Source: a virus. Taken from it: DNA of 24,133 nucleotides. The notes below the pieces were generated by a model that searched no databases, was not told the origin of the DNA, and was given only the letters and a program-made list of their open reading frames with translations. Location of the stretch: positions 1-24,133 of IMG/VR virus record IMGVR_UViG_3300008108_000477. One strand, given 5' to 3'. Of the stretch, positions 1 to 21,758 are shown in pieces. A program made the position numbers and the translations under genes. Each line of letters opens with the position of its first letter. Position 1 is the first letter of the stretch.

Positions 1-2303
1 AGTGATGAAGAAATGTTAGCCGAGATTAATCCACCCTCACTAACCATTTCAACAGAACTACTTACAATACATAAGTTAGTATCTCTAACATAAAATCCAA
101 AGTTACCAGCAGATACTCCGGTAAAGGTAAATGAGTTACTAGTTACACCCGAAAGAGATTGTCCTGTACTTCCTGAGAAATAGAAGGGACTTGTACCCCC
201 CGATACAGTAACAGTTACTTCACCATTACTTGATAAACAACCTGGCTGTATACTTGTAAGGGTACTAATACCAAAACTCGACACATTTGGTACTACCACA
301 TTTTTGACAACAACACACCCTGTAGAATCGGTAACCTCAACCGAATACGTTGATGCCGATAATCCTGTTATGGTGTCACTTGTAGAACCATTAGACCAAA
401 GATAAGTGTAAGGTGCAACTCCTGTCTGACCTGTGACTTGAACCGCCCCCGCATTAACACCACAATTTGGATTTCCTGAGATTGAGAATCCATAATCAAA
501 CAATGAAGATGTACTTACAGTGACAGTCGCTGTGGTGGCGCTGGCACCTCCAAAATCTACAACCTCTGCGTAGTAATCACCAGAACCCAAACCAACAAAT
601 TCAGTAGGGTTTGTGTATGAAGCTCCTTCATAAATCTGTATCGAATCTTGGAATAATGTTATTACGTATGGCAATGAACCCGAACTTCCACTTACATAGA
701 ATACACCATTACTTTCACCACAAGTCGTTCCTGACACATCAATAATTTCTGCATCCAAACAACCCGCTATTACTATGTTGATGTATTGCTCAGCATTTAC
801 ACCACCTGAAGAATCGTTTAATCTAAAAATGTAAGTTCCACCAGACAATCCAGAATATTCTACAGTACCCGTAAAGTTAGTATAACTTGGTAAAGTACCG
901 GGACTATCATTATCTAATGTATATGGTGACACACCACCTGTCGGTGTAAATAATATTCTACCACCGTTAGGGTCGTCACAAGTACCCGTTAATGAAAAAT
1001 AATAACTTAAACCTGTACCCGCACTTGATGGTGATGGTGTTGGCGTATTTGTCGGTGTTGGTGTATTTGTAGGAGTTACTGATGGTGTTTGTGTTTTTGT
1101 TGGGGTATTTGTCGGAGTTTCCGTATTTGTCGGTGTCGCAGTATTGGTTGGTGTTACAGTATTTGTTGGTGTAACGGTATTCGTTGGAGTTACAGTATTG
1201 GTAGGTGTAATTGTATTTGTCGGAGTAACAGTATTAGTTGGGGTTACAGTATTGGTTGGTGTTATAGTATTCGTTGGAGTTGGGGTAGGTGTCTTTGTCG
1301 GCGTTACTGTGTTTGTAGGTGTTGGGGTTGGTGTCTTTGTTGGTGTTACCGTATTTGTTGGAGTTACAGTATTAGTTGGAGTTGGTGTAGGTGTGTTCAG
1401 TGAACAACACACAAAGCTATCTTGCCAAGATGATAAACCGTATACTTGTACATCATTTTGATAATAATATGTTTGAGTTAGAACACCAATTTGAGTTGCT
1501 AAAGCACAAACCGAATTAAATGTGATACCCGAAGTCGAGTATGACTGTTCGGCTGGAGAATTATTACAGTCCGTATAAAATAAATAAACTTTTCCATTTT
1601 GTGATGGGTCTGTATTTCCTGTGGCATTATTGATGTCCGTTTGTGAAATGTTTACATTCAAATACCTACAATCACATGACGTGGGGGTTAGTGTTGGTGT
1701 ATTAGTATTTGTTGGCGTATTAGTATTCGTTGGGGTGACTGTTGGCGTTATAGTATTTGTCGGAGTCACTGTTGGTGTTGGTGATGGACATACCTCACCT
1801 TCACCAACAAAACAAGTTGAGCAATCACTCGCCCCGTAATTGTTAAAAGTATCTAAAGGATAATTCCATGTATATGATGAATATGTGTCAGGTTGTACTA
1901 CAACTTCATAACAACCATCGTTTGGATTCAACCCACCAGGTGAAATCAAAGTTAATCCAACAAAGTCACCAACGTTCCACCCAAAAAAATTACCAGTATT
2001 TATTCTCCAATTTTGACCACTACAACAATTACTTATATAATATTCAACATCTGAACAATATTCAACAGATGTTATTTCACCGTTACCACCAGTTATGACA
2101 TAAATAACTGAGCTAGCATTTGGGTCTTGATAAAATCCATCAGAAGCGTATGGCACAGTACAAACACCACCAGTATATAAAACAGTACCTACTTGTAATA
2201 CAGGTGTTAAGGCATCATCATATGAAAATGTATCTGTAAGTGGCGCAGTACAAGCAGTTACTTTATTAACTAAACTATAATTGAGGGTTAAACCAGTACA
2301 CAT
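1..2303 (-). CDS. Partial tail fibre/adhesin with Thr-Pro-Thr-Asn stalks and tandem SprB-like domains (C-terminus outside window)
   Basis: An open frame starts at an ATG at 2303 (overlapping the upstream stop as TAATG) and stays open to base 1, giving at least 767 codons with no stop in the window. Visible architecture: an N-terminal Cys-containing domain (about residues 1-172), a short Thr/Pro/Asn-rich linker (173-208), a Cys-rich domain (209-303, with a CDC and a CC pair), a long TPTNTV-type repeat stalk (304-426), then tandem domains whose first cysteines fall at 442, 528, 614, 689 and 745. The third domain contains [11 protein letters not shown], then GLSAS and VEVTDSTGC, which matches the SprB repeat of flavobacterial gliding adhesins. 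No signal peptide is evident, as expected for a virion protein. I infer a distal fibre or adhesin attached to the baseplate, coupled translationally to the upstream tail protein. Sure of the frame and domain pattern; the adhesin role is inference. Confidence 0.85.
1026..1394 (-). repeat. Degenerate 18-bp tandem repeat coding a TPTNTV stalk
   Basis: On the minus strand this stretch reads as variants of ACTCCAACAAATACTGTA, coding Thr-Pro-Thr-Asn-Thr-Val. Interspersed TPTKTPTP units and a final PSPSS end the block. It covers about 123 residues (304-426) of the adhesin. Third-codon positions vary freely while the amino-acid pattern is kept, so selection appears to act on the protein. An extended, possibly O-glycosylated, flexible stalk is the likely structural meaning. 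Confidence 0.9.
1680..1787 (-). repeat. Shorter Thr/Pro/Asn-rich repeat linker in the adhesin
   Basis: This is a second, shorter block of the same repeat class, coding [17 protein letters not shown] and further TPTNTN units (residues 173-208). It separates the N-terminal domain from the Cys-rich middle domain. Together with the longer block it gives the protein a domain-stalk-domain-stalk-domains layout. Confidence 0.85.
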
Positions 2304-16271: not shown

Positions 16272-16736
16272 TTAAATATTGATAATAACAAAATCCTTAT
16301 TGTCGAAAGTGCTATCAGTAATAGTATAGTCAATTCTTATTTTTGCTGTATAGTCCGCAACACCAGTACCAGGTACTCTATAAATACCACCGACACCAAT
16401 GTTACTCATATTTAAATCACCAACAAGTTCAAGTTCTTCGGTGTATGGTGTTATTGTAATATCATTTAATATCAAATTTGGTAAAAATTCATCTACCGCT
16501 TGTCTGATATCTGCCTTAATAGCTTCAAATGATAATCCATCCATAGGTTCAAAAATGAACTCATAAATTCTTGTACCAAAATTTGGTAAGTAATATCTAC
16601 TACCTTTTCTTGTTAAGATAAGATGTAACAAATCAGTTCTTATTTCCTCCTCAGGTGTTTGAGATAAGGAAAGGTATTTTCCATCCTGACTTTGTCCGAA
16701 AGGAAAATTAATACCATATGTTTTACCGTCAGCCAT
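16272..16736 (-). CDS. Baseplate wedge protein, gp25/W-like
   Basis: This 154-residue protein has the conserved core of the gp25-like (GPW/gp25) family at residues 31-66: EIRTDLLHLILTRKGSRYY, then LPNFGTRIYEFIFEP. The family is shared by T4 gp25, P2 gpW and contractile injection systems; gp25 sits at the inner baseplate and nucleates sheath assembly. It is the first gene after the terminator that ends the ribonucleotide reductase genes, so it probably opens the late structural transcript. The leader (ATTTATGTATA before ATG) has no Shine-Dalgarno sequence. Length is slightly greater than T4 gp25 (132 residues). Confident. Confidence 0.95.
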   Translation of the reverse strand: MADGKTYGINFPFGQSQDGKYLSLSQTPEEEIRTDLLHLILTRKGSRYYLPNFGTRIYEFIFEPMDGLSFEAIKADIRQAVDEFLPNLILNDITITPYTEELELVGDLNMSNIGVGGIYRVPGTGVADYTAKIRIDYTITDSTFDNKDFVIINI

Positions 16737-16832: not shown

Positions 16833-18560
16833 TTATGCTTCACAACTCGTGCAAACCAAGTCATTAAGATTAAGTTTTTTTCTTGCAAATGCCTGAGCTG
16901 AGTTCATTGAATGCTGATAGTAAAGGGTCTTAACTCCCAATTGCCATGCGTCAATAAGAAGTTTATTAACATCTTTAGTCGGCATATCCGGTGAAATCAT
17001 TAAGTTCAATGACTGTGATTGGTCAATAAAATCTTGTCTGATAGCCGCTTGGTTAATGATTGTAGATTGATTAATTTCAGCAAATGTTCTAAAAATTTCT
17101 TTCTGTTCATCAGTCAAAAACTCTAAATGTTGTACAGAACCATCTTGTTTTTTAATACTGTCCCAAGTCGCTTTAGTATCTTTTTTGATATCAACAAGTA
17201 ACTTTTTAAGTACTGGGTTTTTGATAGTAACTTTTAATTTAGCAACATCCTTAACATAACAGTTAGACCAAATTGGTTCAATAGATTGTGAAACCTGACC
17301 CAAGATAAATGCTGATGATGTTGTAGGTGCAATTGCGTTTAATGTAACGTTTCTTCTACCATAACCGACTAATGTTTCTGGTTCACCAAACATCTCAGCA
17401 AGTTCCGCAGATGCTTTATAAGATTTGTCTTTTATCAATTTGAAAACCTCAATATTCAATCTTGCACTATCTTTACTGTCAAAAGGTAAACTTTTAGATT
17501 GAAGTAGTGAATGCCATCCCAAGACACCTAAACCAAGGGCTCTTTGTCTTTTAGCGAAGTTGTAAGCCTTTTCAAGATAGAAGAATGCTCTTTGACCCTC
17601 GATTGTACCATTATTTCTTAGTTCATCAATTTTACTAATAAATTCAGTAACAACCGCATCTAAGAAGTATACCATAACTTCAACAGCGTCTGTGTCTTTC
17701 CACTCGTCGTAGTGTAAAAGGTTCATAGAAGACAAAACACAAACAAAAGATTCTTCTTCTGAGTTGTGTAATGCAATTTCAGAACAAAGATTTGAATTAT
17801 AAATTTTCATGTCTTTATCTCTGTAAACTTCAGGTGCCTTGTTATTCATAGTATCTGTGAACATAATATATGGATATCCAATCTCACCTCTTCTTTGAAT
17901 TACTTTAGCCCAAATAGCTCTTTTTTCTTTATCCCCATTTACCATTTGTTCCATGAATTCATCAGTAACTGTTACTGCGTGTGTCAAATCTTGAATTGGG
18001 AATCCCTCAGTACCGATTTCTAAAAACTCCATAATATCAGGATGCTCGACTGGTAGGTATGGTGAAAATCTACCTCTACGTGTTGAACCTTGTGATATGT
18101 TATCAACAACACTTTGGAAAAGATTCATAAAGTGTACTGAACCAGGTGCGTGTCCATTATCGGTAATTGACGCACCTCTTCCACGAATATTTCCAAAATA
18201 TCCCGAGGTACCTCCACCCATCTTACTCATTTCTCCAACTTCCGCTTGTGTATATAAAATTGACTCAATGTTGTCACCAATATTAGAACCAAAACAACTA
18301 ACAGGTAAACCCCTTTTCTTACCAAAATTAGCCCACACGGGTGATGAAAGTGAGTACCATCCTTTACCCATATACTCATAAAACTTATCGGCAAAACCTT
18401 TAAGTTTTACATTGTCTGCAGTTGTACTCAAAATTTTTTCAGCGTGCTCTGCAATCACTCTGATTCTTTCCAGTGGTTCTTCACCTTCGCTGAGGTATCC
18501 TCTACGAAGGAATGTTATGGATTCTTCATTAATCCAATCAAAAGGTTTTCTATTTTCCAT
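16833..18560 (-). CDS. nrdA: Class I ribonucleotide reductase, catalytic large subunit (short form without ATP-cone)
   Basis: Reduces ribonucleoside diphosphates to deoxyribonucleotides for phage DNA synthesis. Of 575 residues, the key catalytic positions can be matched to E. coli NrdA: C89 (VSCF) and C274 (FVCVLSSMNL) as the redox pair, N257/C259/E261 (SNLCSEI) as the active-site Asn, thiyl Cys and Glu, and Y547-Y548 (TLYYQHS) for radical transfer. The C-terminal CTSCEA (C570, C573) would be the shuttle cysteines that re-reduce the active site. The protein begins directly at the barrel region: the N-terminal ATP-cone activity domain of E. coli NrdA (761 residues) is missing, while the partner NrdB carries one. 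It lies 19 bases downstream of nrdB and ends before a terminator, so the two form an operon. No intron or intein interrupts it. Very confident. Confidence 0.96.
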   Translation of the reverse strand: MENRKPFDWINEESITFLRRGYLSEGEEPLERIRVIAEHAEKILSTTADNVKLKGFADKFYEYMGKGWYSLSSPVWANFGKKRGLPVSCFGSNIGDNIESILYTQAEVGEMSKMGGGTSGYFGNIRGRGASITDNGHAPGSVHFMNLFQSVVDNISQGSTRRGRFSPYLPVEHPDIMEFLEIGTEGFPIQDLTHAVTVTDEFMEQMVNGDKEKRAIWAKVIQRRGEIGYPYIMFTDTMNNKAPEVYRDKDMKIYNSNLCSEIALHNSEEESFVCVLSSMNLLHYDEWKDTDAVEVMVYFLDAVVTEFISKIDELRNNGTIEGQRAFFYLEKAYNFAKRQRALGLGVLGWHSLLQSKSLPFDSKDSARLNIEVFKLIKDKSYKASAELAEMFGEPETLVGYGRRNVTLNAIAPTTSSAFILGQVSQSIEPIWSNCYVKDVAKLKVTIKNPVLKKLLVDIKKDTKATWDSIKKQDGSVQHLEFLTDEQKEIFRTFAEINQSTIINQAAIRQDFIDQSQSLNLMISPDMPTKDVNKLLIDAWQLGVKTLYYQHSMNSAQAFARKKLNLNDLVCTSCEA

Positions 18561-18579
18561 GTTTCTATATTAATTTAAA

Positions 18580-19863
18580 TTAAAATAAATCGTTCATTGT
18601 TATCGATTTCGTTTTTTTGCTATAATTGATACTTCTTTTATTGAAGAAATCAGTGTGTTTTGTTGTTAAAATTTCATCATCAAACCATTCAGTCGTTTCC
18701 AAAAGAGGTTGGTTGATTTCGAAAATATTATCAATACCGATAGAATTTAAAGAGGTATTAAATCTATGTTTGATAAACTCTAAAGTTTGTGCTTTTGACA
18801 AGAAAGTCAAGTCACCTTTTTCAAAAATCCAATTTACTATTTCAAGTTCAGCTTCGTAAGCATCTTTGGTTGCTTGAATCAGGTCTTGAACCAAGTCATC
18901 AGTCCACCATGATGGATTTTCTTTTTTTATAATATTAACCAAGTCGAATCCAAAACCAGCATGAATATTTTCTTCTTTAGATGTGGCCTCAACAGCATTA
19001 CTAATACCTTTTAATACATTTTTATGTTTATTAAATGACATAATAACTAAGAATTGTGAGAACAACGATACGTTTTCAACAAACATTGAGAACAATACAA
19101 CTGATTCAAAATATTCTTGATTTTCAACCGCCTTTGAATTTGATATGGTTTTTTCCAAATATTTAATTCTTCTACGAATTGCAGGTACTTCCAAGATGTT
19201 TTCAAATTCACTATTAAGACCTAACAATTGAATTAGGTGTGAATATGCATCCGCATGTCTTACCTCTGATTCTGCGAATGTTGCACCAACACTACCAATT
19301 TCTGGTTTTGGTAGTCTTTTATAAATGTCACCCCAAAATGTTTTTACCGCAATTTCTATTTGTGAAATTGCCAACATAGCTCTTTGGACCGCAGTTTGTT
19401 CTTTTTCACTCAAGTGTACTTTAAAATCTTGAATGTCCGAAGTGAAATTAAACTCTGTATGAACCCAATATGAATGTCTAATTGCATCAACATACTCATA
19501 CAAATCAGGATATTCGTAAGGTTTTAAATTGATTCTTTTTGAAAAAATATTCGGTTGGTGTTTTGAACGATAAATGATATATTCTTTAGCAACATCATTT
19601 AACCCATTATCCATAAGTTTATTTTCCACCATATCGTGGATTTCATCCACATGAGGAACTCTTTCTTTATCTCCTTTAAAGATACCTTTTGTGGTTAGTC
19701 TTGCAATTTTTTCAGCCATATCTTCATCTATTTTACCAACAGATGCCATAGCTTTCATAACCGCTTTTTTTATCTTTTCGGATTCGAATAGTACTGTTTC
19801 ACCGCTTCTCTTTACGACGAATCGGTGGTCTTTTAGTGCCATATTAAAAATGTAATTATCCAT
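18580..19863 (-). CDS. nrdB: Class I ribonucleotide reductase, radical-generating small subunit fused to an N-terminal ATP-cone
   Basis: Houses the metal centre that generates the radical used by NrdA. Residues about 12-103 form an ATP-cone (VVKRSGETVLFESEKIKKAV, later HVDEIHDMVENKLM and YIIYRSKHQ). The ferritin-like part follows with metal ligands recognisable by alignment to E. coli NrdB: D143, E200 and H203, E263, E298 and H301. Y207, four residues after H203, sits where the radical tyrosine lies in E. coli. A C-terminal tail with Y414 matches the NrdA-binding, radical-transfer tail. ATP-cones are normally on NrdA; NrdB-borne cones regulate activity by changing NrdB oligomerisation in Leeuwenhoekiella blandensis. 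At 427 residues it is the usual small-subunit length plus the cone. A second ATG at residue 8 is a possible start. It lies 12 bases from the helicase gene. Confidence 0.96.
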   Translation of the reverse strand: MDNYIFNMALKDHRFVVKRSGETVLFESEKIKKAVMKAMASVGKIDEDMAEKIARLTTKGIFKGDKERVPHVDEIHDMVENKLMDNGLNDVAKEYIIYRSKHQPNIFSKRINLKPYEYPDLYEYVDAIRHSYWVHTEFNFTSDIQDFKVHLSEKEQTAVQRAMLAISQIEIAVKTFWGDIYKRLPKPEIGSVGATFAESEVRHADAYSHLIQLLGLNSEFENILEVPAIRRRIKYLEKTISNSKAVENQEYFESVVLFSMFVENVSLFSQFLVIMSFNKHKNVLKGISNAVEATSKEENIHAGFGFDLVNIIKKENPSWWTDDLVQDLIQATKDAYEAELEIVNWIFEKGDLTFLSKAQTLEFIKHRFNTSLNSIGIDNIFEINQPLLETTEWFDDEILTTKHTDFFNKRSINYSKKTKSITMNDLF

Positions 19864-19875
19864 AGTTTTTTTATA

Positions 19876-21258
19876 TTAAGTATTTGTATTTTCTCGTTGT
19901 CTTCTTTGATTTAACAACTCATTAATTCTTGTTCGATTTCTTTCTTCTTTTTGTTCCTCAAGACCAAGTAGTGTGACACTTTGTTCAGTATCAATAACCA
20001 AAAATTCATTATCAAATTTACAGTTTTCAAATACAACACCGTCTTTACCAAGACGTGATTTTGTTATCGCAATTGTTGCCAAATTCATTTCTTTTTGTTG
20101 TAATGTTTTAGCCACAGTAATAATAACGTGACCTACTTGTGCTTTTTTGATTGAACCACCCATTTGGTCTGTAGTAACAACTTCAGATGATATTGATGAA
20201 CGGTTACCTTGTGTTGCAGTCCAACCTACGATTTGTAGTTCGTGACATAAAGCCTCAAACGCTCGCATAACCGAACCCTCACTTTTCCATTCATCTTCGA
20301 GTTTTCTGTCAGGTACAATACAGTCAATGTAGTCTATCACTATCATGTCTATTTTATTACCTTCCGCCATCATTTTTCTAACTTGATTTTTAATTTGATT
20401 CATAGTCATAGTATCTGATGGCAATTTCTTCAAAGTTAAGATATTTTTTGTATTTGACTTAATTTCTTTAACCTTTTCTAATACAGTTTCTCTGTGGTTT
20501 GACAAATCATCAGGAGCAATACCTGTCCACATAGTAAAATGTTTACGTTGTATAATTTTAGGATTGTCCTCAAAAAATACTTGTAGTACATTATACCCAA
20601 GATTAAATGCGTTGTTCGCTATTTTAGACAAAATTGTAGTCTTACCAACACCTGTCGGTGCCAATATTACACCAATCTCCCCTTTAGCCAATCCACCTTT
20701 AAGTAGATTATCAATACCTTGAATTCCCATCGGAATAGGATGTCTGTAATCATCATCCAAAACCTCGTCCAAGTTTGAGAATACGTCAGATGTACCAACT
20801 TCAACTTCTCCAACTTGTAGAGCTTCACGAACCATTTGTTCTAAGTGGTCATAACTTTCAAAATCACCCTTATCGATGATTTTTTGTGCTTTCGACATCA
20901 CTTTTTGAAGTTCTTGTTGTTTACAGAATTTCAAAGATTTTTCTTGGACAAAATCTGAACCTTCTATTGGACACTCTTTTACTTGTTCCAACATATCCAT
21001 CACCATTTTTTGTGCCATTGGTGATGTAATTTCAGATTTTGTTAGTTGGTCTAAAGTATTAAAGGTCGGTGCATGTTCATACTTTACATAATACTCCCTT
21101 ATCATTTGCATGATAAGTCTGAAGTATTGATTATCAAAATATTTGGGGTCTAAAACGTCAACGATAGATGTAGCAAAATCTTTGTTAAGTATAATATTGT
21201 TTAATAATTGTATTTGAAATGTGTTCCCTAAATAACCAAAATTTTTATCGTTTGACAT
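19876..21258 (-). CDS. Replicative DnaB/gp41-like DNA helicase
   Basis: Hexameric helicase expected to unwind DNA at the phage replication fork. The 460-residue protein has an N-terminal helical domain (about 1-150) and a RecA-like motor: Walker A APTGVGKTT (200-208), the catalytic-Glu segment VFFEDN (E230), Walker B MIVIDYID (305-312), a Gln sensor segment WTATQGNRSS (346-355), and an arginine/lysine-finger-like stretch near KSRLGKDG (400-407). The overall organisation and length are those of T4 gp41 (475 residues) and bacterial DnaB. No separate primase domain is present in the polypeptide. A 44-base gap precedes it, with an AT-rich box at 21292-21299. It is followed closely by nrdB. Confident on family. 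Confidence 0.93.
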   Translation of the reverse strand: MSNDKNFGYLGNTFQIQLLNNIILNKDFATSIVDVLDPKYFDNQYFRLIMQMIREYYVKYEHAPTFNTLDQLTKSEITSPMAQKMVMDMLEQVKECPIEGSDFVQEKSLKFCKQQELQKVMSKAQKIIDKGDFESYDHLEQMVREALQVGEVEVGTSDVFSNLDEVLDDDYRHPIPMGIQGIDNLLKGGLAKGEIGVILAPTGVGKTTILSKIANNAFNLGYNVLQVFFEDNPKIIQRKHFTMWTGIAPDDLSNHRETVLEKVKEIKSNTKNILTLKKLPSDTMTMNQIKNQVRKMMAEGNKIDMIVIDYIDCIVPDRKLEDEWKSEGSVMRAFEALCHELQIVGWTATQGNRSSISSEVVTTDQMGGSIKKAQVGHVIITVAKTLQQKEMNLATIAITKSRLGKDGVVFENCKFDNEFLVIDTEQSVTLLGLEEQKEERNRTRINELLNQRRQRENTNT

Positions 21259-21302: not shown

Positions 21303-21758
21303 TTAAGCGAGCTGATAATTCATGTATTTGTAAGATAAATTTTCAGCTGAAAAAATGTCAGTCAGACCCCTCAATATGATTTTCAACTCTGGTCGTATGT
21401 CTACGGTATATCTTACCTTTGGTGGGTACAATTTGGCGTCAACTATTCTATGACAAATTGTCTCATCTCCAATCTTTACATACAAGTTAAAGTATTCTGG
21501 ACCTTCCGTATTAGATGTTTCCAAAATCTCTGGGTCGGCAATAATTTGGTCTTGATTGTCAACCATGTAAATCAAAGATTTTAGTCTAAGGTTGTTTTCG
21601 ACTAGTTCGGCAACTTCTTTAAGAATGGCACCAACTTCCAAACTTCTTCTCGCCTTAGGATTATATCCTTTAACGTTATAGAATCTTTGTACGATGATGT
21701 TGTCATTCAAAGTCATTAAGAACTCCATCTTTGTTGTGTCTTGCATTTGTTCTTTCAT
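21303..21758 (-). CDS. Uncharacterised conserved-looking protein in the replication cluster
   Basis: This 151-residue, soluble, mixed alpha/beta protein starts MKEQMQDTTKMEFLMTLND, with alternative ATGs at residues 5, 11 and 15. A central motif reads FYNVKGYNPKARRSLE, followed by acidic and hydrophobic stretches. It has no cysteine cluster, signal peptide or membrane segment. I do not recognise the family. It sits four bases downstream of the 5' nuclease gene and 44 bases upstream of the helicase, in the position where T4-like phages may keep helicase-loading or DNA-binding accessory genes (gp59, dsbA). An accessory replication or transcription role is plausible but is inferred from context only. 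Confidence 0.75.
   Translation of the reverse strand: MKEQMQDTTKMEFLMTLNDNIIVQRFYNVKGYNPKARRSLEVGAILKEVAELVENNLRLKSLIYMVDNQDQIIADPEILETSNTEGPEYFNLYVKIGDETICHRIVDAKLYPPKVRYTVDIRPELKIILRGLTDIFSAENLSYKYMNYQLA

Follow-up and report, generated by a model that had tools for sequence, protein, structure and literature searches.

The described systems closest to the enzyme studied here are the class Id ribonucleotide reductases (RNRs) of Leeuwenhoekiella blandensis (NrdAi/NrdBi; PDB 5OLK, 6SF4/6SF5; PMC5794259) and Facklamia ignava (PMC6187632), both with the ATP-cone on NrdBi. Measurements on these two enzymes established that ATP favors β2 and an active α2β2 complex, and that dATP leads to β4 and to inactive α2β4/α4β4 complexes; the L. 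blandensis cone binds two nucleotides. A 2018 study described cone-bearing NrdBi in "viruses and bacteria" and judged the NrdBi cone a relatively recent, mainly flavobacterial acquisition (PMC5794259). Viruses with a subclass Id RNR have been reported in the ocean. The partner NrdAi is known to be without an ATP-cone, a β-α gene order is typical of operons with the cone on β, and the median NrdAi length is 564 aa (PMC9669993). The cone-on-NrdBi layout is, in other words, already known, and the locus described below is a further phage member; what we add is that its cone appears intact, with the mapped contact and interface residues kept across a viral clade.

The window (the whole 24,133-base stretch of a virus record that was analyzed) carries both subunit genes on the minus strand, and the original prediction had placed them at 16833–19863, which is their exact span. 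The gene nrdB (18580–19863) encodes the 427 aa radical-generating subunit, with a Ribonuc_red_sm match at residues 110–384 (E 2.7e-59). Its N-terminal ATP-cone, anticipated at about residues 12–103, was located by the PF03477 profile at residues 15–103 (19555–19821, minus strand; E 7.5e-21, 74.9 bits against a cutoff of 25.8). By Pfam, NrdB consists of cone and core only and thus differs from the F. ignava protein, which has an extra N-terminal glutaredoxin domain; the two share the cone on NrdBi, the β-α operon and class Id membership, the dATP switch having been measured in the latter. The gene nrdA (16833–18560) encodes a 575 aa catalytic subunit which, as had been proposed, is coneless: its Pfam matches are limited to the catalytic families Ribonuc_red_lgN (residues 14–84) and lgC, and a profile search of the whole record found no PF03477 match other than that in NrdB. 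The further proposal that NrdA begins at the barrel region did not hold, as a short N-terminal helical domain is present and the length is normal for NrdAi. A cone concealed in or upstream of NrdA is excluded by the Pfam result and by the spacing of the genes, since just 19 nt lie between the nrdB stop and the nrdA start. The order, β then α, is that typical of cone-on-β operons. A 7-residue insert at NrdA residues 46–52 (18405–18425) is shared by only 2 of 64 viral relatives, and cellular NrdA rarely, if ever, has it.

Residues 8–427 of the window NrdB align with the cone-bearing L. blandensis NrdB (PDB 5OLK) at E 5.3e-159, and the best PDB relatives of NrdA are the class Id α subunits 6dqx (E 1.8e-201) and 6dqw. 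What defines an NrdBi protein is a Glu as first metal ligand together with a strictly conserved Trp; the Mn-dependent subgroup that has been studied also has a Lys (PMC6754362). In the window NrdB the first ligand is Glu rather than Asp (E170, aligned to L. blandensis E170 and invariant in 160 loci), the Trp follows seven residues later (W177) and the subgroup Lys stands three residues before it (K174). Y207 and T294, whose counterparts in L. blandensis keep the tyrosine away from the metals, are conserved as well. NrdA has all class I catalytic positions, each conserved: C89, N257, C259, E261, C274, Y547, Y548 and the C-terminal C570 and C573. Judged by these residues, NrdA and NrdB together form a class Id (NrdAi/NrdBi) ribonucleotide reductase with a predicted Mn2 center, the class Id cofactor being Mn2(IV,III) without a tyrosyl radical.

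Alignment with other two-nucleotide cones (A. aeolicus, E. coli, P. copri and NrdR) gave the positions of the inner and outer nucleotide contacts, and cone–cone interface residues were taken from the L. blandensis paper, whose "Asp76" corresponds to Glu76 in the 5OLK sequence. The nucleotide-contact residues K18, R19, K30, Y95 and R99 are the same as in L. blandensis, and the aromatic Y95 would stack on the outer base. The β4 interface residues D77, E80, M84, K93, I96 and I97 equal L. blandensis D73, E76, M80, K89, I92 and I93. The two systems thus share domain order, a coneless NrdA and every mapped nucleotide, β4-interface and metal-site residue, and the resemblance to L. blandensis advanced in the original prediction is borne out by the end-to-end alignment to 5OLK and the identity of the mapped cone residues, nucleotide-binding ones included. 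They differ in that the window enzyme is phage-encoded, is about 56% identical, has a cone–core linker 4 residues shorter and falls in its own clade. All 11 mapped contact and interface residues are invariant in the 86 loci of the viral clade, bar I97 in one, and 19 cone positions are near-invariant over the viral and cellular sets.

These data bear directly on whether the cone is a degenerate remnant without ligand function. It is less conserved than the core (sequences of the viral clade average 0.81 identity to the window in the cone and 0.90 in the core), and its dN/dS among viral relatives is slightly higher (0.077 versus 0.053 for the core; rough values from simple pairwise counting, with many pairs near synonymous saturation). 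However, its Lys, Arg, Tyr and Arg contacts are intact, its dN/dS is no more than 0.077, the 19 near-invariant positions lie within it and it is modeled well (see below). On the kept residues and the dN/dS we reject degeneracy, which we regard as extremely improbable; as far as sequence can tell, the cone is neither degenerate nor decaying.

We consider, at a probability of roughly 80%, that this is a phage class Id RNR in which the activity switch is the intact ATP-cone at the NrdB N-terminus. In keeping with the earlier suggestion that the radical subunit would be the sensor of ATP and dATP, supported here by the position of the cone and the likeness to L. blandensis, ATP in the cone would favor β2 and with it active α2β2. 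Two dATP per cone would let cones pair through helices 3 and 4 to give β4, which would hold NrdA in nonproductive α2β4/α4β4 complexes. Phage dNTP synthesis would then be under negative feedback rather than being carried out by an unregulated enzyme. Because contact and interface residues are identical, the phage enzyme most likely works like that of L. blandensis, and the phage has probably retained an off-switch that is absent from some other phages. We found no assay of a phage cone-bearing NrdBi in the literature searched. The system offers a clear and cheap way to ask whether dATP feedback on phage-made dNTPs is maintained in lytic phages.

Conserved residues alone are no proof of inhibition, as the cone could bind nucleotides yet only activate. 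The main rival to the L. blandensis-type switch is accordingly one of weakened inhibition, in which the cone binds ATP and dATP but inhibition is lost at the dATP levels of infection, through a raised Ki or activation by ATP only, leaving the enzyme effectively uninhibited. Such an outcome would be in line with the coneless RNRs of some cyanophages, a lack interpreted as advantageous for lytic phages (PMC6370689), and with the linker shortened in the window clade, which could alter the β4 geometry; Salicola-type phages, moreover, change the interface itself (D77 to K/E, K93 to R, I97 to T). The window clade, in contrast, keeps the entire β4 interface and both nucleotide sites in 86 loci, with strong purifying selection on the cone; any relaxing of inhibition should become visible there first. 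We therefore deem weakened inhibition unlikely.

NrdB was modeled with AlphaFold2 from an input alignment without INPHARED sequences, giving a mean pLDDT of 76.5. The model matches the L. blandensis core 6sf5 with Z 37.3 and an rmsd of 1.7 over 295 residues, and 5OLK, cone and core together, with Z 36.9; the whole-chain rmsd to the latter exceeds 10, as expected if the cone–core angle differs, and the modeled angle is not to be trusted. The cone is well modeled, residues 11 to 100 giving pLDDT averages of 72 to 92 per 10-residue segment. The C-terminal tail (residues 399–427; 18583–18669, minus strand) is of low confidence (pLDDT <50), as expected for a tail docking to NrdA, and its K409, R410, N413 and Y414 are invariant.

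Relatives of the locus are encoded on 525 IMG/VR stretches, and the best 80 of these 525 all have the cone on NrdB; where an NrdA open frame is present in these 80 it never exceeds 586 aa. On each of seven larger contigs (51–184 kb) there is exactly one ATP-cone and a single NrdA. The idea that the phage carries an additional NrdA with a cone was rejected, none occurring in these seven, possibly incomplete, large relatives. In the window a DnaB-like replicative helicase gene (19876–21258, minus strand; DnaB_C E 2.6e-15) lies 12 nt upstream of nrdB and a gene for a gp25-like baseplate wedge protein (16272–16736, minus strand; GPW_gp25 E 2.6e-11) lies downstream of nrdA, both syntenic in viral relatives. 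The block of uvsX, exonuclease, a 151 aa protein, helicase, nrdB, nrdA, gp25 and a baseplate-J-like gene is conserved in most sufficiently long contigs and is therefore a lasting feature of a single phage lineage. The 151 aa protein (21303–21758, minus strand), whose position flanked by the exonuclease and helicase genes is conserved in viral relatives, has no Pfam or convincing PHROG match.

A cone on NrdB with NrdA downstream is also found in Staphylococcus (Remus/Romulus), Mammaliicoccus MSShimriz1, Sporosarcina Lietuvens and Salicola SCTP-2 phages, whose NrdBs are only 47–52% identical to that of the window and stand in other genome neighborhoods. In Firmicute-phage cones M84 is replaced by L or F, and in the Salicola type three interface positions are altered. 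The shortened linker recurs in Salicola-type phages and is absent from the cells and Firmicute phages compared. In Silviavirus-type phages (L165, Staphylococcus phages), on whose cones the literature search returned nothing, homing endonuclease genes interrupt nrdA and not the cone-bearing nrdB. Coneless NrdBi occurs too, in phages and in Bacteroidota. A large coneless phage NrdBi clade (L186–L247), about 60% identical to the Sporosarcina phage NrdB, adjoins the cone-bearing Firmicute-phage clade and is a place to seek cone loss. At two further Bacteroidota loci (L314, L315) the partner fused to the ATP-cone is not an RNR subunit but an apparent uridine-kinase/phosphoribulokinase-type protein.

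In a phylogeny of 58 NrdBi cores the window phage clade (support 100/100) stands apart from the cellular cone clade (100/95), whose members are nearly all Bacteroidota. Two more groups are formed by the cone-bearing NrdBs of Firmicute phages (100/98) and by those of the Salicola type (100/100); coneless phage clades lie in between, and the cone state changes at least twice. The phage/Bacteroidota tree called for at the outset thus separates the window and cellular cone clades, each well supported, yet their union into one clade is not rejected by the AU test (p 0.264), nor is a single clade of all cone-bearing NrdBi (p 0.234). The same unrejected union would allow nrdBA to have been captured recently from a flavobacterial host, the phage enzyme then being a host enzyme, and the closest cellular relatives are indeed Flavobacteriales at 59–62% identity among the 80 nearest genome loci (cellular sampling being limited to these, with F. 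ignava not among them). We disfavor such a capture and hold it to be quite improbable, given that the core tree keeps the phage and cellular clades distinct, that the shorter linker is common to window-type phages and absent from cells, and that in dozens of contigs the genes around nrdBA are conserved phage genes. Most simply read, the layout was passed down inside an old NrdBi lineage. The claim that the cone had switched subunits in a phage, leaving NrdA for NrdB, is accordingly not upheld: the layout belongs to part of the NrdAi/NrdBi subclass and was inherited by the phage clade. One cellular entry (L139), a MAG labeled Hydrogenovibrio whose NrdBi groups with Flavobacteriales, is probably a mis-binned contig.

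Among the phage sequences the cone on NrdBi is present in no fewer than three diverged groups, which bears on where the fusion arose. In a tree of the cones themselves, with those of Bacteroidota serving as outgroup, a single NrdBi cone clade was marginally rejected (p 0.028), and was not rejected once the Firmicute-phage cones were left out (p 0.43); with fewer than 90 columns, few outgroups and a post hoc design, this test gives a hint that the Firmicute-phage cone may come from a separate source. The short linker shared by window- and Salicola-type phages, set against the grouping of Firmicute-phage cones with an anaerobic NrdD cone, leads us to the tentative and rather doubtful suggestion that phages, not flavobacteria, hold much of the cone-bearing NrdBi diversity and that the cone joined NrdBi more than once. 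Were this true, lytic phages would repeatedly have gained or retained dATP feedback instead of shedding it.

In the remainder of the window a 767 aa open reading frame (3–2303, minus strand) with long Thr-Pro repeats is open-ended and runs off the contig, and the plus-strand open reading frames at 1089–1839 are its antisense shadow. Our literature search returned nothing on Bacteroidetes phages that combine an RNR with starts devoid of Shine-Dalgarno motifs. A Shine-Dalgarno-like motif is absent at 13 of the 14 gene starts in the window, the regions upstream are A/T-rich and the GC content is 34%, features that fit, and do not prove, a Bacteroidota host.
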